Below are positions 5,037 to 36,824 of a stretch of DNA of 43,649 nt, piece by piece. The notes under the pieces were generated by a model, which ran no database searches, was not told the DNA's origin, and was given only the letters and a program-made list of their open reading frames with translations. The translations under genes and the position numbers were made by a program. This DNA is from Halieaceae bacterium. Lineage in GTDB: Bacteria; Pseudomonadota; Gammaproteobacteria; Pseudomonadales; Halieaceae. Numbering within the stretch: the first letter of the stretch is position 1; every line of letters starts with the position of its first letter. The DNA lies in NCBI GenBank assembly GCA_902520195.1, contig CABYND010000016.1, positions 1-43,649 on the forward strand, read 5' to 3'.

Positions 5037-7160
5037 ATGAAAGTGTATAAGCAACGAGCAATCACCACATTTGCCGCATTAACAATAATTTTCGCAGGTG
5101 CGCCTCTACGCGCCGAGACTACGGAACAGCCGACACTGGAAGAGACCCTTGTCAGAGGTAGCTACTTACAGTCCAACGAGGCCAATGCGCTTAAGACTCC
5201 AACGCCGATCCTCGACGTTCCCCAAAGCCTTAGCATCGTGACCTCGGAACAAATCCTGAGACGTGGGTTCACCAGTGTCTCTGACATCATCGAGTATTTG
5301 CCGGGCGTTAGCATGTCTCAAGGCGAAGGTCATCGAGACGCGGTGGTGTTCCGGGGCGTAAGGTCTACAGCTGATTTCTTCATTGATGGTGTGCGGGACG
5401 ATGTGCAGTACTACCGGCCTCTCTATAACCTCGAGCAGTTGGAGGTCTTGCGGGGCCCTAACGCCCTGCTATTCGGCCGCGGTGGCACCGGAGGCATCCT
5501 TAACCGGGTCACCAAGAAGGCTGAGATAGGGAGTAATTTTTCCCAGATTACAGGTTACGCAGACTCCTTTGGCGCTGGCGGACTACAGGGCGACGTTAAT
5601 GTAGGCCTGACCGACAGTGTGGCACTCAGACTCAATGCAATGGCTGAGGGTTTGGATAACCATCGTGATCACTTTGATGGTGAGCGGATAGGTGTCAACC
5701 CTACCGCGCGGGTGTCTTTAAATGAGTCAACTAGGCTCGATCTCTCATACGAGTATGTTGACCACGAGAGATTCATCGATCGCGGTATCCCTACAGGAAG
5801 CAATGGAGACCCTGTTGAGCGGTTCGACCGAGTGGTTTTTGGCGACCCCAATGTCAATGTGACAAGGCTTAAGGCGCACATTTTTATGGCCAATCTGGAG
5901 CACCGGTTCTCCGACTCAATGAAAGGTAAGGTCACTGTCTTCTACGGCGACTACGACAAGCTTTACCAGAATTTCTACGCGGCCTCTTATAGCGAGGCAA
6001 ACTCCCCAGGTGTTGTGACGCTGGACGGTTACGTTGACAAGACGCAGCGGGAGAATCTGATTTTATCAGTCAATCTCATCAAAGAAGTGTCGTTTGCGAA
6101 TATGAGCCATCGCTTCTTACTGGGTGCCGAGTTCGTCGACACGTCCTCAGACCAGGATCGTTGGAACACCTATTGGTCGGAGACAGCAGACGACAAAGAG
6201 ACTTTCTCAGTAGCGCGACCGATGGGGATTATCGGAGGCGTCGGAACGAATGCTTTAGGGGCGCGCACAGTCAACGACTTTACCGTGGATCAAAACGACG
6301 ACACTCGGGTCGGTGTTGAGGTGGCGTCGTTCTATCTTCAAGACGAGATGGCCGTCACGAACTATCTGGATATTGTCCTGGGCGCGCGTTTCGATCAATT
6401 TGAAATCGATGTATTCAATGTGCCTGCGGATGACTCCCGGTCAAAGCAAGATGAAGAGGTTTCCCCGCGGCTGGGCTTGGTCCTCAAGCCAAGGGAAAAC
6501 ATGTCTTTATACGCCAGTTACAGCGAATCATTTTTGCCGAGAAGCGGTGAGCAGTTTGCGAATATCAACGGCAGCAAAGGTCAGCTTGATGCCGACACAT
6601 TCGCGAATACCGAGCTTGGCTTTAAATGGGACATATCGCCCGCGTTAAGTTTCACTGCAGCCGTTTTCGAGATTGAGCAGGAATCGCCTCAGGTGGCCGA
6701 CAATGACCCAGAAACGTTGGATGTGATCAAGTCCGAAACGGATGGTTTTGAACTCCAACTGGAGGGGCAGCTGACGGAGGCTTGGTATATTTCAGCCGCT
6801 TACAGCTATCTAGATGGAGAGCAGATGGGCCGCACCGGGTCGAAGGGCTTGCGACCCAGAGAGCTGCCGGAGAATATGTTCTCTGTGTGGAATTTTGTGC
6901 AGTTCACGCCAAAATTGGGCGCGGGTCTAGGACTCACCTATCAGGACGAGAGCTTCATCAACAACAGCAACACAGCTCGGTTACCAAGCTACACTCGCGT
7001 TGATGCGGCCTTGTACTACGAGTGGTCAGACGATCTTCGAGTGCAACTGAATTTTGAAAACCTCGGGGACACGGTTTATTTCCCGAGCTCACACAGCACG
7101 CATCAGGCGTCTGTGGGCGCACCTTTCAATGCTCGTCTAGCGGTTACTATGGACTTTTGA
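5037..7160 (+). CDS. TonB-dependent siderophore receptor
   Basis: The 707-residue protein has a signal peptide (cleavage near PLRA-ETTEQ), a TonB box (EETLVRGS), a plug domain with DVPQSLSIVT, LPGVSMSQGEG, VVFRGVRS and EVLRGPNALLFGRGGTGG, and a long beta-barrel ending in a C-terminal Phe (AVTMDF), as outer-membrane barrels do. The plug sequence style is that of ferric-siderophore (FhuA/FpvA-like) receptors, without the extra N-terminal signalling domain of transducers. The Fur box immediately upstream supports iron uptake. It is monocistronic, ended by a hairpin at 7171-7192. The exact siderophore (hydroxamate or catecholate) cannot be told. No siderophore synthesis genes are in view, so a scavenged siderophore is possible. 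Confidence 0.93.
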   Translation: MKVYKQRAITTFAALTIIFAGAPLRAETTEQPTLEETLVRGSYLQSNEANALKTPTPILDVPQSLSIVTSEQILRRGFTSVSDIIEYLPGVSMSQGEGHRDAVVFRGVRSTADFFIDGVRDDVQYYRPLYNLEQLEVLRGPNALLFGRGGTGGILNRVTKKAEIGSNFSQITGYADSFGAGGLQGDVNVGLTDSVALRLNAMAEGLDNHRDHFDGERIGVNPTARVSLNESTRLDLSYEYVDHERFIDRGIPTGSNGDPVERFDRVVFGDPNVNVTRLKAHIFMANLEHRFSDSMKGKVTVFYGDYDKLYQNFYAASYSEANSPGVVTLDGYVDKTQRENLILSVNLIKEVSFANMSHRFLLGAEFVDTSSDQDRWNTYWSETADDKETFSVARPMGIIGGVGTNALGARTVNDFTVDQNDDTRVGVEVASFYLQDEMAVTNYLDIVLGARFDQFEIDVFNVPADDSRSKQDEEVSPRLGLVLKPRENMSLYASYSESFLPRSGEQFANINGSKGQLDADTFANTELGFKWDISPALSFTAAVFEIEQESPQVADNDPETLDVIKSETDGFELQLEGQLTEAWYISAAYSYLDGEQMGRTGSKGLRPRELPENMFSVWNFVQFTPKLGAGLGLTYQDESFINNSNTARLPSYTRVDAALYYEWSDDLRVQLNFENLGDTVYFPSSHSTHQASVGAPFNARLAVTMDF

Positions 7161-17235: not shown

Positions 17236-17326
17236 GGAGAAGTGGCCGAGTGGCTGAAGGCGCTCCCCTGCTAAGGGAGTATACGTTAATAGCGTATCGA
17301 GGGTTCGAATCCCTCCTTCTCCGCCA
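17236..17326 (+). tRNA. serX: tRNA-Ser (anticodon GCU)
   Basis: The gene folds as a serine tRNA: acceptor arm GGAGAAG (17236-17242) pairs with CTTCTCC (17316-17322), discriminator G and encoded CCA at 17324-17326. The anticodon stem CTCCC/GGGAG holds the loop CTGCTAA with anticodon GCT at 17270-17272, reading AGC/AGU. A long variable arm and a T arm GAGGG-TTCGAAT-CCCTC complete it. The 3' end is the integration site of the island that follows, and the gene remains intact because the island restores that end. The symbol is by analogy with other bacteria. Confidence 0.96.
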
Positions 17327-17327
17327 T
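17313..17327 (+). repeat. attL core: 3' end of tRNA-Ser
   Basis: ctccttctccgccat occurs here and again at 36382-36396. It covers the acceptor 3' strand, the CCA and one following base. A P4-type integrase gene starts 145 bases downstream, the standard layout for an island in a tRNA gene. Confidence 0.9.
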
Positions 17328-17430: not shown

Positions 17431-17471
17431 TCTCTGTGTCAGTTTGTCTCAAGTATGGTGTGGGAGAAAGT

Positions 17472-18689
17472 GTGGGAACAAAACGCCTGACCGAGCGCGG
17501 GATCCAAACCCTGGGGCCGGGTCGGCACTGCGACGGCGATGGTCTGTACCTGCTGGTGTCGCCCACTGGCCGGCGTAGCTGGGTGCTTCGCTACCAGCTG
17601 CGGGGTAAAAGGCGGGACATGGGGCTTGGACCCTATCCCTATGTCTCGCTACAAGTCGCCAGGCAACGCGCCTTTGAAGAGCGCTCTTTGGTGAAAGTCG
17701 ACGGCGAGGATCCCATCACCCGGCGGCGTCTGCGAGGCGCGGAAAGCAGTGCTGATTTCGCCTCCGTCACCTACGAATATATAAGACTCAAAGCGCCTGG
17801 GTGGCGTAGCCCAAAAAGTGCGGCGCAGTGGACTTCTAGTCTCGAAACGTACGCCTTTCCAGTTCTGGGAAGACTGCCCGTATCCGCTATCACCATCGAT
17901 CACGTGCTGGCTGTCCTAAAACCTATTTGGGTGGAGAAGACCGAAACCGCCTCGCGGGTGCGGCAGCGGCTCGAGGCCATACTGAGCTTTGCGATCGCTA
18001 CCGAGCGACGCACTGCTGAGAACGCCGCTCAATGGCAAGGCCGACTTGAGCATGTGCTGCCTGCGCCAACCAAGGTCACACAGGTTAAGCATCACGCGGC
18101 GCTCGATTGGCGCGAGGCGCCCAGGCTATGGCCTCACATCAACGCTGCATCCGGGCAATCAGCTCGCGCCGTGGCTTTCCTATATCTGACAGCCGCCCGC
18201 TCTTCAGAGGTGCGCTTCGCTCAATTCTCGGAGTTCGATCTGGATGAGGGTTTGTGGAGTCTGCCGGGTGAGCGGATGAAGAATGGCAAACCTCACCGTG
18301 TGCCGTTAAGTGATCAGGCTATGCAGGTGATCAGGCGGCAGGCAAAGACGGCGACCAATAAGTCGGTATTCACTAACTCCAAAGATCAGCCTTTGAGCGA
18401 TACGGCGCTCGCCAAGGTGCTCAAATCCTACCCACAAAAGACCACTATCCATGGTTTGCGCTCAACGTTTCGGGACTGGGCAGGGGAGGCCACCTCCCAT
18501 CCCAGAGAGATCATCGAAATGGCGCTTGCTCATAGCACCCACAACGCGACCGAGGCGGCCTACGCCCGCGGTGACATGCTGCTAAAGCGGCGGCGCTTGA
18601 TGGAAGACTGGGCACAGTTCTTAACGGTGCCTGAGCGTGAAATAGAGGACCTGATAGAGATCAGAGCGGATCGGAAGGAGTGGTTATGA
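17472..18689 (+). CDS. int: Tyrosine integrase, P4 type
   Basis: The product (405 residues from GTG 17472) has the N-terminal DUF4102-like arm-binding domain (GPGRHCDGDGLYLLVSPTGRRSWVLRYQLRGKRRD in part; GLGPYPYVSLQVAR), a core-binding domain (about 100-200) and the catalytic domain with Arg in TAARSSEVR, HGLRSTFRDWAG (H-xx-R) and ALAHSTHNATEAAYARG (His and nucleophile Tyr). It recombines the tRNA-Ser 3' end with the island circle. GTG 17472 follows GGGAG by 6 nt; an upstream GTG at 17436 is in frame but unlike the family. The last codons overlap the next gene by 4 bp (ATGA). Confidence 0.95.
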   Translation: MGTKRLTERGIQTLGPGRHCDGDGLYLLVSPTGRRSWVLRYQLRGKRRDMGLGPYPYVSLQVARQRAFEERSLVKVDGEDPITRRRLRGAESSADFASVTYEYIRLKAPGWRSPKSAAQWTSSLETYAFPVLGRLPVSAITIDHVLAVLKPIWVEKTETASRVRQRLEAILSFAIATERRTAENAAQWQGRLEHVLPAPTKVTQVKHHAALDWREAPRLWPHINAASGQSARAVAFLYLTAARSSEVRFAQFSEFDLDEGLWSLPGERMKNGKPHRVPLSDQAMQVIRRQAKTATNKSVFTNSKDQPLSDTALAKVLKSYPQKTTIHGLRSTFRDWAGEATSHPREIIEMALAHSTHNATEAAYARGDMLLKRRRLMEDWAQFLTVPEREIEDLIEIRADRKEWL

Positions 18690-19911: not shown

Positions 19912-21327
19912 TTAAGCCTTCCAATCCTGTCCAAAGCACCCCTCAAACAACGTTTTTAGGAGTCCAGATGCCTCGGGAGCAGGCCCCGGTGCCCAACGTG
20001 CATCGAGTGTGTGCCGCTGCCCATGTGCCGGGTTGTGTGGTTCCAAAGTAGCCTCCCCATCAGCAGAAATCGCAATAAAGCCGCTCTGACAGTTGATCCC
20101 ACAGGCGCGCCGGGAAAAAAAATCGGGCTGCGCGCAGATGCTATGAAATTCGAAAATCGAGCCGTCTATAAAACTTTTGTTACTGATAATTTTTTTGTTG
20201 CCAATTAGCGTCCCATCGAGATCTTGGATCAGGGCTCTTTGATCTTGTTGCGGCATTGCCCCCCAATGAGTGGCCTCGAAAGTCCACAGGTCTCCCTCTG
20301 CAAAAATCGGTGTTCGCCCGTCGCTCGACAGGTGTGCTTTCAAGGCTTTCGCAATAGAGGTGTGGCTTATATTGCTCGATGCAAGCCGTTTAACCCGTTG
20401 CCAACCCTGGGTGCTAGCACGGGTATAGATTGCATCTATGCCGGTGCGCGTCGGGTTAAGAGATTTAAATGTGTTCTCAACATCTCTAGGTCCTTTGTAG
20501 CTGCTGGGGGTTGATCCGTTGGGCCTTCGTTTTGACCATTCCTGGAATAACGCCTCGCCCTCTGCCTCGGGGAAAGCGGCTTTCAGCGCATGTCCGATGG
20601 CAATCCACTCTTCTCGATGCTCTGGGTCAAGATACTGCAGGGCTTCCCTGACTTCTTCGACTTGTTCAGATTTTAGTGGCATAGCAATCGGAAACCGCGA
20701 ATCAGCCTGCACAGCGTCATCGGGCGGCGTGGCAACCGACAGATCTTGAACTGATGCTGTTTTCTGAAGAAAGGCAGTAATCTGTGCGCCAAGCTGTCTA
20801 AGCTGAAGCTCAGTCACAGCTGTCAGTTGGCCAAATGCCACTTGAGTGAGGTCCTCGCTGGGCCACGTGTAAGGTTGCTTTGTGCCTGGGTGGCGGCTGA
20901 AGACCACCGCCTGATTTCCCTCGCCCAGAAACTCGACTTGTTGTTTTTGACCGTCTATGAATACCTCCGGTGTGGTCCGTTTCGGAACAGGTTCTCCTGC
21001 GTTGCGATAGAACAGCATTACCTTGGGACTCTGGCCTATTCGGCTGGGACTGGGACCGAGTTTCTCAACGCAAAGCGCCTGAACCTCTTTGGCAATCATT
21101 TCGTCATTGCAGTCGATATCAATACCCACCGTGGCTCCCATCACAATCCCCACACCACAGTTCCCGTATTGATTAATCAGCTTATTAACCAGCGAATAAT
21201 CAGAGAAGTCCATTTGCGTCCATGCACCGACGGCTGGCCGCTTGGTTTGGGGTCGGATCGGTAGAGGTAAGTACCCATTATTGAGCAGGGGTAAAGCATA
21301 GTTCTGGTAGGTAGGCTCACGACTCAC
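19912..21327 (-). CDS. Primase N-terminal part of split P4-like replication protein
   Basis: About 471 residues from GTG 21327. The N-terminal half is an AEP-type prim-pol domain: GVGIVMGATVGIDIDCND (catalytic DxD), VMLFYRN, and FSRHPGTKQPYTW (motif II His). A PriCT-like domain follows (REEWIAIGHALKAAF, GPRDVENTFKSL), then the start of the D5_N region. The frame ends at TAA 19912-19914, where family members continue into the helicase. The start was chosen because GGAGGTGCATC precedes the GTG and because it overlaps the stop of the AlpA-like gene, implying coupling. The protein would prime island replication if joined to its helicase part. Confidence 0.88.
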   Translation of the reverse strand: MSREPTYQNYALPLLNNGYLPLPIRPQTKRPAVGAWTQMDFSDYSLVNKLINQYGNCGVGIVMGATVGIDIDCNDEMIAKEVQALCVEKLGPSPSRIGQSPKVMLFYRNAGEPVPKRTTPEVFIDGQKQQVEFLGEGNQAVVFSRHPGTKQPYTWPSEDLTQVAFGQLTAVTELQLRQLGAQITAFLQKTASVQDLSVATPPDDAVQADSRFPIAMPLKSEQVEEVREALQYLDPEHREEWIAIGHALKAAFPEAEGEALFQEWSKRRPNGSTPSSYKGPRDVENTFKSLNPTRTGIDAIYTRASTQGWQRVKRLASSNISHTSIAKALKAHLSSDGRTPIFAEGDLWTFEATHWGAMPQQDQRALIQDLDGTLIGNKKIISNKSFIDGSIFEFHSICAQPDFFSRRACGINCQSGFIAISADGEATLEPHNPAHGQRHTLDARWAPGPAPEASGLLKTLFEGCFGQDWKA

Positions 21328-21556
21328 GATGCACCTCCAGCTTGGTATCGATCCAGGCTTCAAGGTCCGTGGTTCGGCAGCCAACAGCACGAGGGCTTAG
21401 GACGATTTTTTTAGGAAAATCCGGTGCTCGACTTAGTCTGTACAGATACCGAACAGAGATGCCCAGCATGCGGGCTGCCTGCTCTGGCCGCGCAATTTGG
21501 CTTTGTTTACGCAGGCGGGCAGTACTTGATGGAAAGGGTTTTTTAGGGCTATTCAT
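21317..21556 (-). CDS. AlpA-family HTH regulator
   Basis: A 79-residue protein with QIARPEQAARMLGISVRYLYRLSRAPDFPKKIVLSPRAVGCRTTDLEAWI, the AlpA/excisionase-like winged helix; only the core is quoted in parts. AlpA regulates integrase genes in the P4/CP4-57 family. The ATG at 21556 follows GAGGAACC. It precedes the primase gene and overlaps its start by 11 bases, as often seen in P4-like islands. With the excisionase-like gene at 18686, the island has two HTH regulators, one at each side of the replication gene. Which of them drives excision is not known. Confidence 0.85.
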   Translation of the reverse strand: MNSPKKPFPSSTARLRKQSQIARPEQAARMLGISVRYLYRLSRAPDFPKKIVLSPRAVGCRTTDLEAWIDTKLEVHRES

Positions 21557-21929
21557 GGCGTGGTTCCTCGATCGAGCGTCGAGGAGGCGAACAGGTGTGT
21601 CCCCAACGCAATTAACGTCAGAAAACATCACCCTTTGCCACTCGCAGAGCCGAATACTGCGGCCTCCCAGTGAGGGAGAGGGGGTTTGCGCTCTCGTCAC
21701 AGAGCTTATGCAGCTTGACCAAGCACCCGTCACATTTTTCCGTTTATTCGGTCACGGCGCGACGTGTCAGAACGTTAGCGGACTAGCCGCATTCTGTCAA
21801 AAAAATTATATAAAACATTAGGTTATATGCGATTATATGGGGCTCTAAATGATGGCGCTCTAAGAAGTTGGCGCCGATCTGAAGTGTTGTGATGAATAAA
21901 CTCATGCAGCCATAGTAGAGAGTAAAGCA
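21557..21929. other. Divergent control region of replication and nuclease genes
   Basis: No gene is seen. On the minus strand TTGACA (21795-21800) and TAACGT (21772-21777) are 17 bp apart and could drive alpA-primase. A dyad GCGG-N5-CCGC lies in the spacer and may be an operator. The part from 21800 to 21840 is very A+T-rich. A promoter for the nuclease gene at 21930 was not identified. Confidence 0.4.
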
Positions 21930-22748
21930 ATGGCCAGGCACCGAGGAAAATTTAAACCCGATAATCCAGCCCCTTACGAGTTGTCTCGAAGTGCAATCGA
22001 GAAAATGATCAAGTGCGAAGCTTGCTTCTGGCTGGAGAAGGTTAAGGGCATCAAAACACCAAGCATGCCCGGGTTTAACCTCAATACGAATACAGACACT
22101 CTTTTAAAAAAGGACTTTGATGCGGTTCGAGGAAAAGGTCCGCATCCGCTGATGGAGGCCTCAGGCCTGTCCCATTTGCGGCCTTTCTGGCATGAGGATA
22201 TTGGAAAGTGGGCGGATTCGATGCACTTCGGTGCAGAGGGCCGTTTCCATTTTGATCATCAAGAAACCAATATCCGGTTTGGTGGTGGCTTGGATGATGT
22301 GTGGGAAAACATCGAGACCGGGGAGCTGCACGTCGTTGATTATAAAAGCACTGCGCAGCTAGGAAAGGAGTCCAAGCCCCTCGACAAATCATTCATATCG
22401 GCACCGGAGGACCCCTCCAAGCCAGACTATAAAGCTGGGTATAGACGGCAGATGGACATGTACCAGTGGATTACCAGACGGCTCGGCTTCGACGTCTCTG
22501 ATACGGGTTATTTTGTTTACGTTGATGGCCAGCATCGGAATGAGCAGGGAATGCTGGACGGCGATAGTCCAACTCAGGCATGGATGCGTTTTAACGTTTC
22601 CGTAATACCCTACGAAGGTAATGACACTTGGGTGGAAGATGCGTTGCGAAGAGCCAAATACCTAGTTAGCGAGGTCGACGACTCTCCGGAGCACGCTACA
22701 TGCTGCGAATACGGCCAGTATCTTGCCAAGCTCGCTGCGCTGGGATAA
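21930..22748 (+). CDS. PD-(D/E)XK nuclease-superfamily protein
   Basis: The 272-residue protein has a RecB/Cas4-like nuclease core: GGGLDDVWE (Asp122), VVDYKST (Asp137-x-Lys139) and YRRQMDMYQW (Gln of motif QxxxY). Two Cys at 29 and 32 (CEAC) and two at 258-259 (CC near the C terminus) flank the core at both ends, as the Fe-S cluster cysteines do in Cas4/AddB-type nucleases; only the pattern is seen, and cluster binding is inference. No Cas genes or CRISPR array are nearby. It runs in the same direction as the methyltransferase cassette, 295 bp ahead of it, and could serve either island replication or the defence cargo. Confidence 0.75.
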   Translation: MARHRGKFKPDNPAPYELSRSAIEKMIKCEACFWLEKVKGIKTPSMPGFNLNTNTDTLLKKDFDAVRGKGPHPLMEASGLSHLRPFWHEDIGKWADSMHFGAEGRFHFDHQETNIRFGGGLDDVWENIETGELHVVDYKSTAQLGKESKPLDKSFISAPEDPSKPDYKAGYRRQMDMYQWITRRLGFDVSDTGYFVYVDGQHRNEQGMLDGDSPTQAWMRFNVSVIPYEGNDTWVEDALRRAKYLVSEVDDSPEHATCCEYGQYLAKLAALG

Positions 22749-23043
22749 ATACGCTCACCCGTTCATTGTCTCAAAGTAGTTCATTTTTCCTCGCTTTTGT
22801 GATCATCAGTACCTTCTGTGGTTTTAATTTGGGGTTGACTGGGGTTAACATTTAAAGGACAGCGGTATCTACTGTCAGGCGCCTCTGACTAGAGCGGTGT
22901 CATCATTTTTTATGAGCCGCCGTCTGTTTGGGAACTCGCCATACAGTTTTCGCTGGCGATGAACAGATTGAGCTGTACGCAAGCGTGGATCAAGGCCGGA
23001 TCATAATGGATGTCTAAACTTATAAAGTTGGCCTCACACAGAT
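22749..23043. other. Control region before methyltransferase cassette
   Basis: No gene is seen. A near-tandem GGGGTTgACt/GGGGTTaACa repeat lies at 22831-22850, and GACAG-N9-CTGTC at 22858-22876. TATAAA (23021-23026) is a possible -10 that would give a very short leader, with no ribosome site before the methyltransferase ATG. Confidence 0.35.
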
Positions 23044-24177
23044 ATGAGAGAGTACGCTAGCTTTTTCAGCGGCATAGGGGGGCTTGAGGCAAGCACCCCT
23101 GCGGTTAGCTTTTGTGAGATCGAACCGCGCGCTCGCGATGTTCTTGGCGAACGATTTCCCGATTCGCCCGTATACCACGATATTCGCAAAGTTCAGAAGG
23201 TGGACTGTGAAGTTGTTGTGGGAGGTTGGCCGTGTCAGGACATCAGCGTTGCTGGAACCGGCAGGGGGCTAGAAGGGCCAAATTCCAAGCTTTTTTATGA
23301 GCTTCTTAGGGTTGCTAAGTTATCCTCAGCTGAAGTAGTCGTGGCGGAAAATGTGTCCAACGTGTTGCGACTGGAGGGTGGGCGCATATTTAGAATAATA
23401 CTCTCAGAGTTCCAAAAATCCGGTTTTCCCTACATTGCATGGCGATCAATAAATGCTCGGGAGTTTGGATTGCCTCATCATCGTAATAGGGTTTTCCTCG
23501 TCGCGGCTGCTTGCCTGAACACTGCGACGTCGTTGTTCAGGGACCATCAGTGCCAAGCAGGGTTAACTCAAGACGACCCCGTGGCAGGCTTTTACTGGAC
23601 CGCTGGAACACATTCGATAAATTATTCGGTGGGATACGTTCCAACGATTAAAGTCGGCTCTTCTCTTTCTATTCCATCTCCTCCCGCCATTCATTTTGAA
23701 GATACGGTGCGATTACTCTCGCCTGAAGAAGCTCTGAGATTGCAAGGTTTCACCGATATCAAAGTAGAGAATTTTTCAAAAAGCGACATCTATAGAATGG
23801 CAGGGAATGCTGTTGCGGCACCTGTGGGCAGATTCGTTCTCGACGGTATTCTTCAGGGGCTTGAAGCCCAAGATTTTGAGACCAAGTCGCAGATGTCCAT
23901 GTTCAATGATGACGTTCTTGATGAAGTGGGCCCGATTCCGAAATCTGGGATTTTTGACGGAGAGATAACAGAGGTACTGTTAAAGAAGAACTCACTAGCT
24001 GCCAACCTATCTGAATATATCGACCCAAGAAACAGGGCGCCTATTTCCGCTAGGGCCGCCCTTGGGCTGTTAAGCCGACTTGACAGGAGCAAGATGCCCT
24101 GTCCAGAAAACCTCAGAAGCGTGTTAACCAGAATCTCAGAATCGAAAGCCATATCAGCTGATAATGTCGGCATCTAG
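23044..24177 (+). CDS. C5 cytosine DNA methyltransferase
   Basis: The 377-residue enzyme has all major motifs of DNA (cytosine-5) methyltransferases: I FFSGIGGLE, IV GGWPCQDIS with catalytic Cys64, VI VVAENV (Glu102), VIII REFGLPHHRNRVFLVA, IX LLSPEEALRLQGF and X MAGNAVAAPVGRFV. The target-recognition segment between VIII and IX is short, so the recognition site is probably short. About 75 residues follow motif X and are not part of the catalytic core. It is first in a four-gene overlapping run (14 bp overlap with the next gene). It probably marks host DNA against the nuclease genes downstream. The start lacks a clear ribosome site. Confidence 0.95.
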   Translation: MREYASFFSGIGGLEASTPAVSFCEIEPRARDVLGERFPDSPVYHDIRKVQKVDCEVVVGGWPCQDISVAGTGRGLEGPNSKLFYELLRVAKLSSAEVVVAENVSNVLRLEGGRIFRIILSEFQKSGFPYIAWRSINAREFGLPHHRNRVFLVAAACLNTATSLFRDHQCQAGLTQDDPVAGFYWTAGTHSINYSVGYVPTIKVGSSLSIPSPPAIHFEDTVRLLSPEEALRLQGFTDIKVENFSKSDIYRMAGNAVAAPVGRFVLDGILQGLEAQDFETKSQMSMFNDDVLDEVGPIPKSGIFDGEITEVLLKKNSLAANLSEYIDPRNRAPISARAALGLLSRLDRSKMPCPENLRSVLTRISESKAISADNVGI

Positions 24178-24505
24178 AAGGTGGTCTGATTCGGAATGCG
24201 TTGTGCTTGTGGCACTGTACATGTGCTCAGACTTCGCAATTGCGGATGATGAGCGTGCTGAAAACGCACTAATAGCCTCGGACCTGTCTAGAAACCCATC
24301 ATCGGTTGATAGGCAATGGCGTAACATCAAGGATTACCTCAATCGTATCGAAGGAAAAAATATCAGTAACACGTTAAAGCATTTTTGCGATGCGGCTGTG
24401 GAAGATGTTGAGAGCGTCACCGGGCTAGCCTTATATTTTTGCGGCCTCTCTGGCTGGGAACACATCGGGAAAATTTTGGATGAGCGGACTGAACAAGAAA
24501 CCTGA
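24164..24505 (+). CDS. Small HTH-like protein between methyltransferase and MORC ATPase
   Basis: A 113-residue protein. Its first half, RRWSDSECVVLVALYM and LSRNPSSVDRQWRNIKDYL, resembles the small helical domain found at the N terminus of some HNH-type nucleases (pattern RRWT-x-EL...LY...RNPSSVxxxxxNF), which is thought to bind DNA or a partner. Only the domain is here, without a nuclease. The remainder is helical with no motif I recognise. It overlaps the methyltransferase by 14 bp and the ATPase by 26 bp, so its translation is tied to both and its dose is probably fixed relative to them. Function unknown; a specificity or bridging subunit is my guess. Confidence 0.7.
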   Translation: MSASRRWSDSECVVLVALYMCSDFAIADDERAENALIASDLSRNPSSVDRQWRNIKDYLNRIEGKNISNTLKHFCDAAVEDVESVTGLALYFCGLSGWEHIGKILDERTEQET

Positions 24506-26780
24506 GCAAATCTCAAGACAGTTAGACGTAACCCCTGATCCTCAGGTTCTAGAGCTGTTTGCTGCGTTGGAAATCCCAGCAGCTGGATGTCTCGCTGAGT
24601 TAATTGACAATTCTGTCGACGGATTTCGGCTGGGAGGCACTGAGGGAGGATTAATAGACATTCAGATTGAGCATTCCAAGCTCACTTTTTCGGATAATGG
24701 ACCTGGGATGACTCTTGATGAACTTGAGCGATCACTTAAGGCCGGCTCAAGCTCAAAGAGGAAAGTCGGCGAATTAGGTTTATTCGGCATTGGCTTTAAC
24801 CTGGCAACTATGAAGTTGGGCGTGCAAACCACCGTGTTCACCAAGACAGAGGACGACAAGCTGTGGAATAAAGTCGTCATCAATGTGCGTGACATGATCA
24901 AAGAGAATAGTTTCAAAATCGACAGCTCGCTAGAGGACATAGATTTAGGTTTCGAATCCGGTACCTATATTGAACTCAAGTTGCGAAAGGAATTCGCCGG
25001 AGCGCTTGGGAGGCAAAAATCGATTAGAGATTTGAGAGCGTCTATAGGGCGGCGCTATACGTTTATTCTTCGTACCAAGGTATTCGGCTTAGAGGGTGAT
25101 GTTGCTCATGATAAGCGTGATTTTGTGATCAGATTAAACACAGAGAAGATTAAGCCATTCATGCCATGCATCTGGAATGCGGATAGAAAGATGGCAAATG
25201 GTGAAGCAGCAGTGCAACTAATTGATAAGCGACTGGTGGAAACACAGGTATGCCAGGATTGCAGGACTGAAATGCCCATTGAGGTCTCTTCATGTGAATC
25301 TTGTGGCGGGCAGGACCTAATAGAGCAGCCGAGAAGAATTTGGGGCTGGCTTGGCGTCCAAAGATGCCTCGAGACAGAAGAATACGGGGTGGACCTAATC
25401 CGTAATGGGCGAACTATCGAGGAAGGTTGTAAGGACTTTTTCAAATTCAAGGATCCGGATACGGGGTCCGTAGAAAATGAATATCCTATTGAGCAGACAA
25501 ATAGAGGCAGAATCGTGGGTGAGATCCACTGCGACCATGTCCCTGTCGAATTTACAAAGCAAAGCTTTGAGCGCACCCAGTCTTTCAATAAAGTTCAGGA
25601 GACTTTGCGCGGCACCACCTGGCTTCGGCCGCAGTACGCGGTGGCGCATTGTGGCGAAAGAAACGAGTCGCCGATGGCAGTCATGTTCTCAGGTGTTCGC
25701 AGGATTGACCCAGGCACCAAATACCTCACTCCTGGAAATGGTAAAAAAGCGATCCTAGTAGAGGCAAAAAACTGGGTGAAGAAGTTCCACGCTGGTGATC
25801 CTGATTATGAAACCGACCAGAAGTGGTGGGACGCGTGCGTGTCACACGAGAAGCCTCCTCAAAAACCACCTATACCCGCAACTGTTCCTCCGTCAGGTCC
25901 ATCACCACTTGCCGGCCCTAATCCTACCTTGCCCACGAGCTCACCGCATACTACACCAGCAAATAAGAAGGAAAAGACGATTAAGGAGCTTGCTGATCAG
26001 TGGAAGGCGGGAGCAAGAAAACGCCCTGATTTATCGAAGCCCATTTACCTCAAGGTAATCGAACACAAGTTCGAGATGGAGGTATACGAAACTGTGAGCA
26101 AGATCATACCGCCGGGCGACACCACCGAAAGGGCAGCATTTTTATTGCCTACGAGCGGTGCTAACTTTGAGATTTACGTAAATAGGCATCATCCACTGAT
26201 CGACAAATGGGGCAGGCAGACAACGGACATCGCGCTTGGAGAAGCCTCTAACCATTTATATAGGCAAGGTAAGCGAGCTACTTATTCAGTAGTTTTCGCG
26301 GAGCTGATAGAGAATTTCCCTGATGAAGAAGATTCTGAAATCACTATTCGAGCTCGATGTGAGGAGTTAAAGAAATCTATTAGGACAATATTGCCAAAAC
26401 AGATCGAGGGGGACAGTACCGCAATTTGGTCTGAGATTTCGGAAACCGAACGCATTAAAATCACGCAGACAGCGAGCGATCACTCCAAGATGGATATCAA
26501 TAAATTATCAGAAGCTGGCGCGTTTGGTCAGTTTGTCACATGGCGAGCCCTCACAGAGATAATTGCTTATCGTGCTGAGCTAGTATTTGGCGGGCGCGTA
26601 TTTACACAAGCTCTTGGGGGCAACATACCAACCCTCGCTCGTGAGCGCGTCATCAGCAATACGATCAGCGCGATCAGTGACTTAATAATTTTCGAAGTTA
26701 GTGGCGAGGGAATTTCAAAATTGGAACGACAAAAGGCGGCCATAGCAATTGAATTCCTATATGACCGGCTAAGTCACTGA
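24480..26780 (+). CDS. MORC/MutL-like GHKL ATPase with zinc ribbon
   Basis: The 766-residue protein has a GHKL ATP-binding domain: N-box AELIDNSVDG (Glu40, Asn44, Asp47), G1 DNGPGM (72-77) and G2 GLFGIGFNLAT (100-110). An S5-like transducer follows, interrupted by a zinc ribbon CxxC-x10-CxxC (Cys258, 261, 272, 275) and then GVDLIRNGR. A Pro-rich linker (about 455-495) leads to a helical C-terminal domain of about 270 residues that I do not recognise. GHKL ATPases of this kind (MORC/MutL-like) have been described by comparative genomics in bacterial restriction-modification operons, where they are proposed to close as ATP-driven clamps on DNA. It lies 8 bp before the Mrr-helicase gene. Confidence 0.88.
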   Translation: MSGLNKKPEQISRQLDVTPDPQVLELFAALEIPAAGCLAELIDNSVDGFRLGGTEGGLIDIQIEHSKLTFSDNGPGMTLDELERSLKAGSSSKRKVGELGLFGIGFNLATMKLGVQTTVFTKTEDDKLWNKVVINVRDMIKENSFKIDSSLEDIDLGFESGTYIELKLRKEFAGALGRQKSIRDLRASIGRRYTFILRTKVFGLEGDVAHDKRDFVIRLNTEKIKPFMPCIWNADRKMANGEAAVQLIDKRLVETQVCQDCRTEMPIEVSSCESCGGQDLIEQPRRIWGWLGVQRCLETEEYGVDLIRNGRTIEEGCKDFFKFKDPDTGSVENEYPIEQTNRGRIVGEIHCDHVPVEFTKQSFERTQSFNKVQETLRGTTWLRPQYAVAHCGERNESPMAVMFSGVRRIDPGTKYLTPGNGKKAILVEAKNWVKKFHAGDPDYETDQKWWDACVSHEKPPQKPPIPATVPPSGPSPLAGPNPTLPTSSPHTTPANKKEKTIKELADQWKAGARKRPDLSKPIYLKVIEHKFEMEVYETVSKIIPPGDTTERAAFLLPTSGANFEIYVNRHHPLIDKWGRQTTDIALGEASNHLYRQGKRATYSVVFAELIENFPDEEDSEITIRARCEELKKSIRTILPKQIEGDSTAIWSEISETERIKITQTASDHSKMDINKLSEAGAFGQFVTWRALTEIIAYRAELVFGGRVFTQALGGNIPTLARERVISNTISAISDLIIFEVSGEGISKLERQKAAIAIEFLYDRLSH

Positions 26781-26788
26781 CCTTCTCT

Positions 26789-28450
26789 ATGCTTGATCTT
26801 AATGGCTCAGGTCTGTTCACGCCTGAGCGAATCCAAGGAATCGGGCCTCACGAGTTTCGACGAGATGTCCAGAGACTCATGTCACGGTTAGGGTTTCGAG
26901 TAATCGATGTTGATGGATCGGGAGACCGCGGTGCAGATCTGGTGTGCACGAAGGGAGAGGAAGTTTGGATCATACAAAGCAAGTACAAGAAATCTATCAC
27001 GGGCACTTGCAATGATGATGCACTGGATCAGGCGCTCAATGCCCTGCATGAATTCAACGCTCATCATGCGATCGTCGCATCCAGCGGTGTGCCTTCAAAG
27101 TCCATGGTTGAGCGCCTGTCATCGCTGACCGCCACTGGCATTAGTGTTGGTTTTTGGGGGCTCGACAGTTTACGGAAGTTTTGGCACGACGCTCCAGAGT
27201 CAACGGTCTGGTCGCTGCGGGATTATCAATCAGTGGCTGTCACGCAGATAGAAAACGACCTGGAGCTGACTGGAAGAGCTCTGCTATTTCTTGCTACTGG
27301 ACTTGGGAAGACTGTAGTGGCCGGCGAAGTTATCAGGCGGTTCATAAACCAGTACCCAGATAAAAACGTCTTGGTTTTGGCGCACACAGTCGAATTAATC
27401 CAACAGTTGATGGCATCTTTGATTTCCATGATGCCGAAAAGAGTAAATTCTCAATTATTATCTGGCGACGATAAGCCTCGCTTAGTCACTGGCTTGACTG
27501 TTGCAACTAATCTGTCGGTTCTACCATACATCGAAAAAGGATATGCACCTGATTTGGTGGTGGTGGATGAATGTCACCATGTCGGAGGTGACAACACTTA
27601 TGCTCAAGTTTTAGCCTCTTTATCGGGCGAGCATCGAATTCTGGGTGTCACTGCCACGCCTTGGCGGACTGACAAATTTGATATTCGCAATGCGTTTGGG
27701 CCGCCGAGTTACGAGTGCGGTATTGCAGAGGGTATGGCGTTGGGATACCTGGCTGAAGTCGATTATCGTCTGTTTTGTGACAACATAGATTGGGAGCAGG
27801 TGCCCGAACTCAGCAGGAACGAGTACACAATAAAGGACCTGAATCGCAAGCTGTTCATACCCCAGCGTGATGAACAGATAATCGCCGCATTGCTAGACGC
27901 CTGGACATCAACGTCTAGGCCACGTGGCGTCGTTTTTTGCCAATCCATAAGTCACGCGAAGTACCTCCACGGTTTTCTAAGTCGCTATGAATTTTGGCAG
28001 GCAGCTGAAATTCTCCATTCCCAACTTCTTCGGTCAGACCGGATGAGGGTTTTGGCGGACTTCCGTGTTGGCAGATGCCCATTGATCCTTGCAGTTGACA
28101 TATTAAATGAGGGAGTGGACGTCCCTGATGTGAATATCATTTGCTTCGCGCGAGTAACCCACTCAAGAAAAATTTTCATGCAACAGCTTGGGCGAGGGCT
28201 GCGTATTGCTGACGATAAGACCCATGTTTTAGTCCTAGATTTTGTCGCTGATGTGCGTCGAATGTTTGAGTTGCATGAGCTTGGTCGTTCTATTGAGAGC
28301 GAGCGTGAAGAAATTCAGTATGACAAACAAATCATCTTCACCGATGAGAGGGCGATAACATTGATCGAAAAGTGGATTGAGGACTCGGGGGATCTCGCAA
28401 CAGCCCATGACGAGTACCGACTAAATTTCCCTGAAACCACGGCCCCCTGA
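26789..28450 (+). CDS. Mrr-type restriction nuclease fused to SF2 helicase
   Basis: The 553-residue protein has an N-terminal Mrr-like PD-(D/E)XK nuclease (about residues 15-125): GSGDRGADLV with Asp50 and WIIQSKYKK with Gln63-x-Lys65. A superfamily 2 helicase follows: Walker A ATGLGKT (169-175), DECHH (260-264), TATPWR (288-293), and QQLGRGLRI as motif VI. Mrr-like domains cut modified or foreign DNA in type IV and related systems; fused to a translocase they resemble HsdR-like restriction subunits but without the usual large size. It is the last gene of the methyltransferase-small protein-ATPase cassette, spaced 8 bp after the ATPase, and is the probable cutting engine. Confidence 0.9.
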   Translation: MLDLNGSGLFTPERIQGIGPHEFRRDVQRLMSRLGFRVIDVDGSGDRGADLVCTKGEEVWIIQSKYKKSITGTCNDDALDQALNALHEFNAHHAIVASSGVPSKSMVERLSSLTATGISVGFWGLDSLRKFWHDAPESTVWSLRDYQSVAVTQIENDLELTGRALLFLATGLGKTVVAGEVIRRFINQYPDKNVLVLAHTVELIQQLMASLISMMPKRVNSQLLSGDDKPRLVTGLTVATNLSVLPYIEKGYAPDLVVVDECHHVGGDNTYAQVLASLSGEHRILGVTATPWRTDKFDIRNAFGPPSYECGIAEGMALGYLAEVDYRLFCDNIDWEQVPELSRNEYTIKDLNRKLFIPQRDEQIIAALLDAWTSTSRPRGVVFCQSISHAKYLHGFLSRYEFWQAAEILHSQLLRSDRMRVLADFRVGRCPLILAVDILNEGVDVPDVNIICFARVTHSRKIFMQQLGRGLRIADDKTHVLVLDFVADVRRMFELHELGRSIESEREEIQYDKQIIFTDERAITLIEKWIEDSGDLATAHDEYRLNFPETTAP

Positions 28451-28713
28451 CGTCTTATAGAGAATACTTTGCGAGGGTAGTGCATTACCTCGCGATCATG
28501 ATTCAGCAAGTGGTGGGGTAGATGGCTTTACCCTTACTGAAATCATGGGTTCTTCGTTGATGAATATTGAGGACCTCTATGGGCAAATTTTGGTCAGAGA
28601 TGTGGACGATGAACTTACCTGAAGACGAGATTGGTGAGGTTTCCCACCCCTATTAGTCGATGCTAACTTGTCCACCCCCCAGCCAGTAAGGAACGAGCAA
28701 TGCTGTTAGTTGA

Positions 28714-28920
28714 TCCATTTCAGATGGGCGCTGTTTCGTTCATAACGCTTATGTTCTTGACCGCCTTCGCCTTCGATATGAGTCGAATTCAGACTATAAG
28801 AAAGGGAAACGATTCGAGGGATTTGACGAATTTGGTGACAAGTACACGAATCTGATGATGACTCAGAGTTTCGATTGGGAACTTTTCGACATCCCCAAGT
28901 TCTTCAAAAAACTCATGTAG
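28714..28920 (+). pseudogene. Remnant coding fragment after the cassette
   Basis: After TGA at 28711-28713 the frame stays open to TAG at 28918-28920 and reads DGRCFVHNAYVLDRL, then FEGFDEFGDKYTNLM and FDIPKFFKKLM. The charge and hydrophobic pattern are protein-like, but there is no start codon near its beginning and no ribosome site. A second open stretch in the same style (SGGVDGFTLTEIMG, NIEDLYGQILVRDVDDELT) ends at TGA 28620-28622. I take the region 28451-28920 as a decayed gene of unknown family. It overlaps the convergent HEPN gene by 8 bases at its end. Confidence 0.35.
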
Positions 28921-29887
28921 TGACAGAATGAAAAGTCTCTCTGGCAAGAGGGGGCATAGAACTTTCTATTCTGGTAATCAGCTCCTCGCTCATCTCTTCT
29001 TGAAAAAAGGTCCTAATTACATTTTCGTGATGTTCAGCCGACACTATGTAGTTACAGTGCCAACACCCCACGCCCACTAGTTTCTCAAACTTATAACCGC
29101 TTCCCTTCTCTGATGTCTCCATTACAGAGAACACCCACTCTGTGCATACTGGACACGCTACGCCTTTACGAATGCGGTCATCGGGGCTGGATTCAGTAGC
29201 CATTTCATAAGTAAGGCCATCATGGCCAGTGAGGGCCTCCAACGCATCGCAAATGCGGGCCTTCAAAGTCCACTCAGCATCCCATGCGGCGTCACTTTCA
29301 GCTGCCTTATCAATCACCACTTCGTCGAAGGCTGAAGAAAATGTGGGGGATAAGCTCCATCGTAAGAACTTCTGTAAAAAGAAAGCAGGGATATGGCGTT
29401 CGTCATCTGACAGCTTTTTGTTGGTTACTGATTTCCGTATTTTCCGAAGTAGCCGCTTGAAGTCTTCGTCGTCACCTAAGTTGTATGACAAAGGTTCACC
29501 GAGAACTACTTCTACTATGTGCGCGAAGTATGGGATCCCAGTATCGAAAAATACTTCCCTGCACTCTGAGTCGTCTCTCGGGGAGAACCCTTCATGCTGA
29601 ATGCGATTTCGTAACTTTCGGAATTTGTGAGCCTTTGCATTCAAACCACTCAACAGATCTGTGTCCTCGTAATATTTTTCCTGCAGCACGTGAATGTCGG
29701 GCGCAGAACCAAGATCTTTGTATTTCGATCTCAACAGCGATTCACATCCTGACCAAGTGAGTGGAATTACCGAGGGCCAGCGGTTTAGAGCGACAAGCAT
29801 TAAAGCGCTCTCGAACGCCTGCAAAGCAGATAGAACCCCCGGTTGCGGCTCCTCCTTCGGGTGGGCAACAAACAGTAATCCCTGCAT
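28913..29887 (-). CDS. HEPN-type protein with C-terminal zinc ribbon
   Basis: A 324-residue protein from ATG 29887 (GGGGAAA upstream). The N-terminal helical domain has ALMLVALNRWPSVI and then KLRNRIQHEGF, where Arg93-x4-His98 fits the RX4-6H motif of HEPN ribonucleases and antitoxin-like HEPN proteins. A charged middle helical region follows, and a C-terminal zinc ribbon: CPVC (ACPVCTEWVF) and CWHC (GCWHCNYIV). HEPN domains are frequent in bacterial conflict systems as RNases triggered by infection, but they also occur as inactive dimerisers. No partner toxin/antitoxin gene is adjacent. It is convergent with the cassette. Function as an RNase is inference. Confidence 0.6.
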   Translation of the reverse strand: MQGLLFVAHPKEEPQPGVLSALQAFESALMLVALNRWPSVIPLTWSGCESLLRSKYKDLGSAPDIHVLQEKYYEDTDLLSGLNAKAHKFRKLRNRIQHEGFSPRDDSECREVFFDTGIPYFAHIVEVVLGEPLSYNLGDDEDFKRLLRKIRKSVTNKKLSDDERHIPAFFLQKFLRWSLSPTFSSAFDEVVIDKAAESDAAWDAEWTLKARICDALEALTGHDGLTYEMATESSPDDRIRKGVACPVCTEWVFSVMETSEKGSGYKFEKLVGVGCWHCNYIVSAEHHENVIRTFFQEEMSEELITRIESSMPPLARETFHSVTT

Positions 29888-30058
29888 ACGGTTTCCCCTG
29901 AGCAGATTTGATAAGCCTGAGCTAGTTTGCCTCAAGCGTAACGTTAAATGTTGGGTGGATTTTTTATAGCGTTGGCTTCAAACTAACAACTCGGGCGATT
30001 TGTTCCTATTGCAGGCCCGGGCGATACCCGCCGAACTTGCTAAAACGGAGATATTCTC

Positions 30059-32709: not shown

Positions 32710-33645
32710 TTATCTGAGCGCTCCCGATGCGGAAATGCTGACGCAGGTACCCTTGAAAACTAGAGCGCATTGCCTGGTTTGGGAAGCACTGCCGACAGCT
32801 AGCTGCCCCTCGCCTACAGTGTTGGTTTGCAGCCAGGCAGCGGACCAGACGTCATCCATCAGCTGCCTTGGATTCGCGGTCCTTGAAGATATACCTCTCT
32901 CGCGTGCCTCCCTCGCTTCCAGCGCGAAACTACGTAGGAGGCTAGGCTGATAGTTACGATAGGTTGATGCTCTGTCAAAAACTTCAATAGCCCAATAATT
33001 ATTTGCATTCAGTATTATACCGAGCTGATCTTCCTCGAACTGCCAATCGTCTATCAAGTGCTCAAATGAGCTCAATCCTCTCTCTTGAATCTCGATTTCA
33101 TCAACCGTGCAGGATTGCACGCCTAGATGTCGCTCTTTACTAGCTTGTTGCGCCCAGACTTCTGACTGATTTGCTTCCCCGCGCCCAGTTGCTCGGAGAT
33201 TATCGATAACCCCAGCAAGCTTCTCAGATCTTCCCGCTGCAGATTGCATGTAACTAGCTTCTTCGAACGATTTGCCATGGGTCCATCGTCCCCTCTCAAC
33301 GCAGGCAACTTTTACCTCCAGCTCAGAGTTAGCTGGAAACAAGGTAGTGAGATTAATGGCTCTGTTTTGTTTGGCGCCCCGTAATAATTGTCCGTGCAGC
33401 GCAAAGATTGATTGCGGAGATTTGTTCTCAACTACCACCGCACCGACGGTCTCAGCTGACGTTTCTCTCACATCACAGACCCCGTCTTTCATACTCTGAT
33501 CCAAAAGGCTGTAGGGTAGGGGGTCTAGATCTGGCCCCAACAAAGACCAGGTGGTTAAACCAGAATCCGTTCGCCGCGTACCGAAATTTATCCTCTCTAG
33601 CGAGGCTCTTATCGCTTGAGTCTCATGTTCACTCAGCGTGGGCAT
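32710..33645 (-). CDS. ARPP-1/DUF6569-like protein
   Basis: The 311-residue product contains VVVENKSPQSIFALHGQLLRG directly followed by AKQNRAINLTTLFPANSE and KVACVERGRW; the order and spacing fit the ARPP-1 domain (DUF6569), named for association with ADP-ribosylglycohydrolases and rhodanese-phosphatases in bacterial conflict operons. Its exact activity is not known to me. The ATG overlaps the stop of the regulator gene by one base (TAATG), so the two are coupled. About 1.4 kb away is a macrodomain gene, which strengthens an ADP-ribose theme. No ADP-ribosyltransferase or glycohydrolase gene is seen in between. Confidence 0.75.
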   Translation of the reverse strand: MPTLSEHETQAIRASLERINFGTRRTDSGLTTWSLLGPDLDPLPYSLLDQSMKDGVCDVRETSAETVGAVVVENKSPQSIFALHGQLLRGAKQNRAINLTTLFPANSELEVKVACVERGRWTHGKSFEEASYMQSAAGRSEKLAGVIDNLRATGRGEANQSEVWAQQASKERHLGVQSCTVDEIEIQERGLSSFEHLIDDWQFEEDQLGIILNANNYWAIEVFDRASTYRNYQPSLLRSFALEAREARERGISSRTANPRQLMDDVWSAAWLQTNTVGEGQLAVGSASQTRQCALVFKGTCVSISASGALR

Positions 33646-34580
33646 TACGAATCTCCCTTTTCTGAAGTTAGCTGCTCCTGAACTTTCAATAAGTCAGACC
33701 GAAGGGATTTCATTTCTAGGCGTAATTCTTTTGCCAAGTTTGCAAGGTCTTCTCGAGCTGCTTGCGCCGCGGCAGCTTCACGCTCGAGATGCTCGCTGAC
33801 CTCATCCGATAGTCGGTGGCGCAAGGAGTCAACCTCTTTTAATAAGGCTTCTGCCACTCGCGCTAGATGTTGCCTAGCCTCCCCTGTTCCCTGTTCAGAG
33901 CGGATGAGCCGATCCAGTAACTCCTGTGAAACTTCACTGACTTGTTTATGTCTTAACTCGGCTAGCCGTTTTTCCGATTCGAACAGGTTTTCCAATCGGG
34001 ATGCTTGCAATCTGCTGACATCAAAAGACTCGTTTGCATCGGTCTCGTCCCAGTCCAAGACTGGCGATGCTTGCAGTCTGCTGACATCAATACGCTCCAT
34101 TACATTCTTCGGCATTTTGTAAGGCTCTTGGATTGAGCCCTTCAGTTGTTTACTTAGGGACTGAATTTCTCGCCGCAAAAGCCTTATTGCGTGTGAGAGG
34201 TACCCCTCAGCTGAGGTATTAGAAGACCTATTCGACTGATTCGCTCGCTGATTTGACCCGCTAGCAATCGACTCCTCGGAGAGATTTTTTTTGAAGTTTT
34301 CAACTTCGTAGCGAACATTTTTGTCAGCCATAGTTGCCTGTATCGCAGCGATTTCTTTGAGTGTTTTAGTCGTAAATAGCTGGTACTGGCGGGTAAGCAC
34401 GACTCTCCAAACAGCCGCGGTGGGGTAAGTGGTTTTCGGTCCCCTAGTGGTTCGTTTTTCTAAGATGCCCTTTGAAATCCAGTACCTTAGAGTCCGCTCT
34501 GAAATGGGCTCACACTTTTCCTCGCTGAGAAATGTCTCCAGATGACTGTTGGCGTGGGTAAGCAGTTCTTCGAATGTCAT
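33645..34580 (-). CDS. MerR-like regulator with long coiled coil
   Basis: The 311-residue protein has an N-terminal MerR-like winged helix (ISERTLRYWISKGILEKRTTRGPKTTYP, about residues 26-75; only part quoted here) followed by a Ser/Asn-rich linker and a long coiled coil from about residue 195 to the end. The MerR domain normally binds promoter DNA as a dimer. Between residues 165 and 194 DVSRLQAS occurs twice, 22 residues apart, from a 66-bp DNA repeat. It is coupled to the ARPP-1-like gene and a dyad sits in its promoter, so self-control is likely. The coiled coil may sense or bind the partner protein. Confidence 0.75.
   Translation of the reverse strand: MTFEELLTHANSHLETFLSEEKCEPISERTLRYWISKGILEKRTTRGPKTTYPTAAVWRVVLTRQYQLFTTKTLKEIAAIQATMADKNVRYEVENFKKNLSEESIASGSNQRANQSNRSSNTSAEGYLSHAIRLLRREIQSLSKQLKGSIQEPYKMPKNVMERIDVSRLQASPVLDWDETDANESFDVSRLQASRLENLFESEKRLAELRHKQVSEVSQELLDRLIRSEQGTGEARQHLARVAEALLKEVDSLRHRLSDEVSEHLEREAAAAQAAREDLANLAKELRLEMKSLRSDLLKVQEQLTSEKGDS
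34000..34090. repeat. Direct repeat inside regulator gene (25 bp, 66 bp apart)
   Basis: gatgcttgcaatctgctgac (34000-34019) and its near copy at 34066-34085 (one mismatch: gcagtctg) continue for five more shared bases. The 66-bp offset keeps the frame and gives a 22-residue repeat, so copy number can vary without a frameshift. Confidence 0.75.
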
Positions 34581-36381: not shown

Positions 36382-36396
36382 CTCCTTCTCCGCCAT
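36382..36396 (+). repeat. attR core (copy of tRNA-Ser 3' end)
   Basis: ctccttctccgccat matches 17313-17327 at 15 of 15 bases. The bases on either side differ, and no tRNA is encoded here. It marks the far end of the island. Confidence 0.88.
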
Positions 36397-36554
36397 TTTG
36401 TCAAGCAGTACGGTGCTCTCCAGCCAATTTTCTGCGCCGTGCCCTCATTTATGCCCTCGAAGCCCACATCTTTTACCTCTAGTACTCTCGGGGTAGGGCG
36501 CTAACCGCCGTTGCGATTGTGATGGTTACCGCCCAGATACATTAGGGGGCGGAA

Positions 36555-36824
36555 TTGGGGTCGACCTGTTCATTCGCCTACACCATGGTCGCGTCCGACG
36601 AATCTCAGGTACTGGGCTGCAGTTATTTTTTTCCGACTGACAAAGTCGAATACGATGTAGAAGTGTTTTTATGGGTGAGGGAAAGCGAAGTGGCGAATGA
36701 TCTCTGCGGGGTGCTTTTCGAGGTAGTACAGCGCTGGTTGACTTCTCACTGGCCTTTTGACGACCCCGCCTATCTTGGTAGGAAAATCAGCTGGGAGCAT
36801 TGGAATTCGCTACCAGAGAAGTAA
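36555..36824 (+). pseudogene. 5'-truncated acetyltransferase-like remnant
   Basis: The frame reads FAYTMVASDESQVLGCSYFF, VEVFLWVRESEVANDL, WPFDDPAYLGRKISWEHW to a normal stop. This resembles the second half of a family of GNAT-like proteins of about 170-190 residues, where FAYT is preceded by roughly 90 residues. An in-frame TAG at 36543-36545 and a TTG as the only nearby start argue that the first half is lost. It lies just outside attR, so the loss may date from island insertion or an earlier event. Family call by pattern only. Confidence 0.5.

Follow-up and report, generated by a model that had tools for sequence, protein, structure and literature searches.

What does a MORC-type ATPase do in a bacterial operon that also encodes a DNA methyltransferase and a nuclease-helicase, and which of the encoded proteins reads the DNA? 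We addressed this question with a four-gene cassette in a stretch of 43,649 nt from Halieaceae bacterium (GCA_902520195.1, contig CABYND010000016.1, positions 1-43,649, forward strand), hereafter the window. Its four plus-strand genes specify a C5 methyltransferase, a protein of 113 aa, a MORC-type ATPase of 766 aa and a Mrr/SF2 helicase of 553 aa, and the sequence predicts an anti-virus restriction system whose central protein is related to the MORC proteins of eukaryotes. The reading that we favour, at slightly less than an even chance, is a four-gene ATP-dependent restriction-modification (R-M) system on a mobile island, with the small protein as its recognition subunit. The features of the cassette are as follows; L030 is a second cassette used for comparison.

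23044..24177, plus strand: C5-cytosine DNA methyltransferase P0001 (Pfam DNA_methylase 3e-37)
23584..23688, plus strand: presumed target-recognition stretch, methyltransferase residues 181-215 (31/35 identical to L030)
24164..24505, plus strand: small, putatively homeodomain-like protein P0002, 113 aa (L030 homologue, AlphaFold model)
24296..24340, plus strand: third helix of P0002, residues 45-59, presumed recognition helix (AlphaFold model, L030 comparison)
24480..26780, plus strand: MORC-type GHKL-S5 ATPase P0003, 766 aa (Pfam, phmmer, alignment of 21 MORCs)
24585..24893, plus strand: GHKL domain, P0003 residues 36-138 (Pfam HATPase_c_3 3e-13)
25251..25304, plus strand: zinc ribbon C258-C275 of P0003 (alignment of 21 MORCs)
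25386..25418, plus strand: MORC signature GVDLIRNGRTI, P0003 residues 303-313 (translation compared with the motif from the available text of PMC2292703)
26789..28450, plus strand: Mrr nuclease fused to SF2 helicase, P0004, 553 aa (Pfam Mrr_cat 3e-9, ResIII 2e-24, Helicase_C 4e-16)
26837..27088, plus strand: Mrr catalytic domain, P0004 residues 17-100, with D50, Q63 and K65 (Pfam, helicase alignment)

An earlier note on this DNA had named the four genes and their tight linkage, and both are borne out by the Pfam matches and the coordinates of the open reading frames (ORFs): the methyltransferase gene overlaps the small-protein gene by 14 bp, the latter overlaps the MORC gene by 26 bp, and 8 bp separate MORC from the helicase. 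The residues that it proposed to mutate are all conserved, namely Glu40 of the ATPase (21/21 aligned MORCs), Asp50 and Lys65 of the nuclease (both present in 19/19 helicases) and Cys64 of the methyltransferase PCQ motif, which occurs together with ENV in 6/6 aligned methyltransferases. P0003 is a MORC and not a generic GHKL protein, because its closest relatives of known structure are MORC3 and MORC4 (phmmer E 3e-8 to 5e-8) and because GVDLIRNGRTI agrees by eye at 10/11 positions with the motif GhXhhpXXRhl in the available text of Iyer, Abhiman and Aravind (2008; PMC2292703), with T at one hydrophobic position. Beyond Glu40, the GHKL motif residues D43, D72, G76, G103, G105 and N107, as well as the basic S5 residue K360, are found in all 21 MORCs, and the four zinc-ribbon cysteines (258, 261, 272 and 275) are retained together in 14/21. 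The Pfam matches to Morc6_S5 (0.038) and, at the zinc ribbon, to DZR_2 lie under their cut-offs. At E 0.01, PADLOC gave two matches to P0003, both weak (MzaB 4e-4; TmtA 2e-3), so that the protein as such is not covered by this defence library. Across the alignments, the checked GHKL, S5, Mrr and SF2 residues are retained in every covering row, bar single conservative changes confined to a few glycine-loop or Walker positions.

The earlier note had also proposed to look for the gene order in other genomes. We compared 25 cassettes, namely that of the window and 24 further ones from a metagenome-assembled genome (L002), plasmids (L004-L008), IMG/VR (16 loci, L030-L045) and genomes (L126 and L127), and MORC is followed directly by the helicase in 22/25; the exceptions are L008 with an intervening IS3, L042, cut by the contig end, and L006, without a helicase in the examined stretch. 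A methyltransferase of the C5 type was detected by profile within the examined stretch of 22/25 cassettes (not in L006, L043 and L127). Its position and strand differ among cassettes, and in 13/25 it precedes MORC on the same strand, separated from it by at most one gene. The MORC-helicase association exceeds chance. Among 80 helicase loci from viral contigs, each taken with at most 8 kb to its left and right, MORC is present in seven of the eight closest, several of which are close relatives of one another (the eighth begins at a contig edge), versus none of the remaining 72, more distant loci. In the samples drawn, the system is rare: MORC occurs in 2/398 sampled genomes of the phylum (own genome counted) and in 2/289 of another class (centre genome counted), and the helicase in 1/321 of the own class, which is the own genome. 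Apart from the accessory gene HYP described below, other accessory genes stand 3' of the helicase in L039 (12258-13013), L040 (12258-13013), L041 (7887-8711) and L043 (12026-12580); for those of L039, L041 and L043, the three tested, no Pfam match above the cut-off was found.

Operons of this kind were described on paper in 2008. As far as the available text of Iyer et al. (PMC2292703) goes, they comprise a MORC, a nuclease-fused SF2 helicase and a cytosine methylase, which supports the tie to MORC restriction operons drawn in the earlier note. The window shares with them the MORC GHKL-S5 ATPase, the helicase fused to a nuclease, the methylase and a mobile location, and it contains the pairing that marks their type 1, an SF2 helicase with a restriction-endonuclease-fold nuclease beside MORC, here as Mrr_cat plus ResIII. 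Their helicase is described as Rad25-like; for P0004, NCBIfam gave RadD (4e-35), EcoAI R (7e-34) and XPB (5e-13), each under its own cut-off. The window differs in having, between the genes for the methylase and MORC, one for a small protein with a putative homeodomain-like fold; no such gene was seen in the available text of that paper. Iyer et al. proposed there that MORCs loop DNA between the recognition and the cleavage site, and the earlier note, in which the ATPase would serve as a clamp linking recognition to cutting, comes close to this proposal.

By the mechanism that we propose, the methyltransferase would place 5-methylcytosine on host DNA at its target, and the small protein, as recognition subunit, would read the same target when unmethylated and pass the DNA to the conserved effector pair of MORC ATPase and Mrr-SF2 helicase. 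The MORC ATPase would form a dimeric clamp that closes on DNA under the control of ATP, and the helicase would travel along the DNA and cut it. Restriction, clamp, translocation and reader role are all inferred. Two known systems, each cited from partial text, offer comparisons. CglI and NgoAVII, ATP-dependent R-M systems with a C5 methyltransferase and an SF2 ATPase as in the window, carry recognition and SF2 motor on separate polypeptides and require ATP hydrolysis for cleavage (PMC4267653), which shows that such a division of labour works. VcSduA, a Shedu protein whose GHKL domain is of a type earlier annotated paraMORC3, couples a GHKL ATPase to a PD-(D/E)xK nuclease, like the window, and needs both sites for defence (PMC12137116); unlike the window, it is a single protein and a paraMORC, not a MORC, and no methyltransferase was seen in the available text.

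The small protein had been called the least explained part of the cassette, a description that no longer holds. A homologue occupies the same slot in L030, on another contig (E 3e-17), the AlphaFold model of P0002 suggests a homeodomain-like, three-helix fold (predicted local distance difference test score, pLDDT, 84.8), and residues 4-58 resemble, weakly and above 20000/20000 shuffles, the N-terminal domain of HNH restriction enzymes (PADLOC PDLC03546). Unlike those enzymes, neither small protein has a detectable HNH nuclease domain: in profile-library scans of P0002 the PADLOC match covers the N-terminal part only, and none was found in the L030 protein. The latter (L030 4980-5705) has an additional C-terminal part of roughly 130 residues, in which two similar stretches F..G..G(F/Y)Y..GK...YQ can be discerned by eye. 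In the Ruegeria plasmid cassette L007, the place of the small-protein gene is taken by a gene for a GIY-YIG nuclease (5071-5844).

The trees bear on how the small protein came into the cassette. In the helicase tree, the window, L030, L002, L004 and L031 group together at 100/99. The methyltransferase tree combines cassette sequences with eight outside ones, in whose examined stretches no MORC was found by profile (E 1e-5). Here 15 other cassette sequences group at 100/99, and the window and L030 stand with seven outside sequences across a 93/92 split from these 15; the eighth outside sequence, L132, is placed next to the 15, and L131 and L133 have long branches. Downstream of the helicase, L004 and L031 share the accessory gene HYP, and L002 lacks it and has a Sigma70_r4-type gene at that place. 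In the window, no plus-strand ORF of at least 60 aa begins at a distance of 700 bp or less from the helicase, and L030 ends before that slot. Joint entry of methyltransferase and small protein is the simplest reading, and the puzzling small protein may read DNA and have come in along with the methyltransferase. We tentatively entertain, at rather less than an even chance, a plug-in architecture, in which a methyltransferase and a free-standing, homeodomain-like reader resembling the HNH N-terminal domain would be replaced together while the effector of MORC clamp and Mrr helicase stays the same; if true, swapping two genes would re-aim one effector. Neither the small-protein variant, nor its likely ancestry, nor the proposed paired swap turned up in the literature searched (most subscription journals excluded).

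The window and L030 methyltransferases are 47% identical, and the best-conserved stretches between the two loci are methyltransferase residues 181-215 (0/20000 column shuffles) and, in the third helix of the small protein, residues 45-54, PSSVDRQWRN (9/10 identical; 151/20000), both of which we presume to be DNA readers. Two points call for caution. The methyltransferase stretch is partly common to the outside methyltransferases, and similarly conserved windows exist in MORC (25/35, around the S5 lysine; 7/20000 shuffles) and in the helicase (24/35, Walker A; 291/20000), so that local conservation by itself is no proof of DNA reading. In the 11 cassettes with HYP, the partial rank correlation of HYP is 0.49 with the helicase versus 0.20 with the methyltransferase; HYP thus tracks the helicase more, which speaks against extending the reader role to accessory proteins in general, and a specificity-factor role of these proteins as a class is not shown.

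Small helix-turn-helix (HTH) proteins adjoin methyltransferases in many R-M operons, and P0002, itself a small predicted HTH protein, shows this pattern. It could accordingly be a C-protein-like transcriptional controller that delays effector expression in a new host, with recognition left to the helicase or the C-terminal part of MORC. We consider this unlikely, though it is the best of the alternatives. P0002-type proteins are absent from most other cassettes and hence dispensable to the effector pair, and a promoter-like site (10/12) lies within the small gene shortly before MORC, at 24408-24437. Against such a controller, promoter-like sites in 22600-29000 are not above shuffles (4 found versus a shuffle mean of 7.6), the inverted repeats near the start of the small gene, which overlaps both neighbours, are all imperfect, Pfam gave no Xre/HTH_3 match up to E 1, and in HNH restriction enzymes relatives of the small protein are joined to nucleases.

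We regard it as improbable that P0002 has a structural role, acting as a bridge or regulator for the MORC dimer or the helicase without reading sequence. Such a role would fit the coupled translation suggested by the 26-bp overlap with the MORC gene, and also the added C-terminal part of the L030 form, but the homeodomain-like model and the restriction-enzyme relatives favour DNA contact. Least probable is a Type IV-like effector that cuts modified phage DNA next to an independent methyltransferase, because, although Mrr domains are present in modification-dependent enzymes, PADLOC mREase_IV matches the helicase part of P0004 (6e-35) and the methyltransferase varies in place and strand and is missing from three examined stretches, most cassettes do have one, in 13 of them just upstream of MORC as described above.

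With the small protein as recognition subunit, the locus would be a compact four-gene system with testable roles of writer, reader, clamp and cutter. The earlier note supposed that little or no experimental work exists on this type, and in the open literature searched we saw experiments on VcSduA but none on a MORC/Mrr-helicase cassette; the available text of a 2021 paper (PMC8011034) agrees, stating that bacterial MORCs are poorly understood at the molecular level. Iyer et al. propose, in the same partial text, a bacterial origin of the eukaryotic chromatin MORCs (PMC2292703), and the locus could reveal whether MORC clamps began by linking the recognition of unmethylated DNA to its destruction.

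The cassette sits on an island of about 19 kb that resembles P4-type satellites, with a tRNA-site integrase, AlpA and a replication primase.

17236..17326, plus strand: tRNA-Ser(GCT), island integration site (ARAGORN)
17313..17327, plus strand: left att-like repeat CTCCTTCTCCGCCAT, 15 bases, at the tRNA-Ser 3' end (repeat search)
17436..18689, plus strand: tyrosine integrase (Pfam Phage_int_M 4e-31, Phage_integrase 3e-15)
19912..21390, minus strand: Prim-Pol/PriCT_2 island replication protein (Pfam 4e-12 and 2e-7)
21317..21733, minus strand: AlpA-type regulator (Pfam Phage_AlpA 3e-7)
36382..36396, plus strand: right att-like repeat, the identical 15 bases (repeat search)

The homology of two genus relatives to the window ends at 17327/17328, the 3' end of the tRNA. 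As a control for the repeat, a plus-strand match to any of the 15-mers in the 95-base tRNA stretch was present in 1/200 first-order Markov windows; the actual search covered both strands and 165 bases, and its chance rate is somewhat above this value. An empty integration site was not found in the relatives examined, so that the right edge, resting on the repeat, is less sure. The guanine-plus-cytosine content, 0.52-0.60 in the initial 14 kb of the window and 0.48 in the cassette, does not mark the edges. Upstream of the cassette lies a PD-(D/E)XK nuclease gene (21930-22748, plus strand; PDDEXK_1 4e-5), and L030 has one too. Shortly 3' of the cassette, a 340-aa ORF (28913-29935, minus strand) without a Pfam or PADLOC match contains an R-N-R-I-Q-H stretch, which we take to resemble the HEPN RNase motif. 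Farther along the island are two neighbouring 311-aa genes (32710-34580, minus strand), one with an ARPP-1 domain (Pfam 7e-53) and the other with a weak GajB match (5e-4). At 36440-36561 there is an interspersed repeat; the own genome has eight more matches to it (35-121 bp), and the genus relatives have many.
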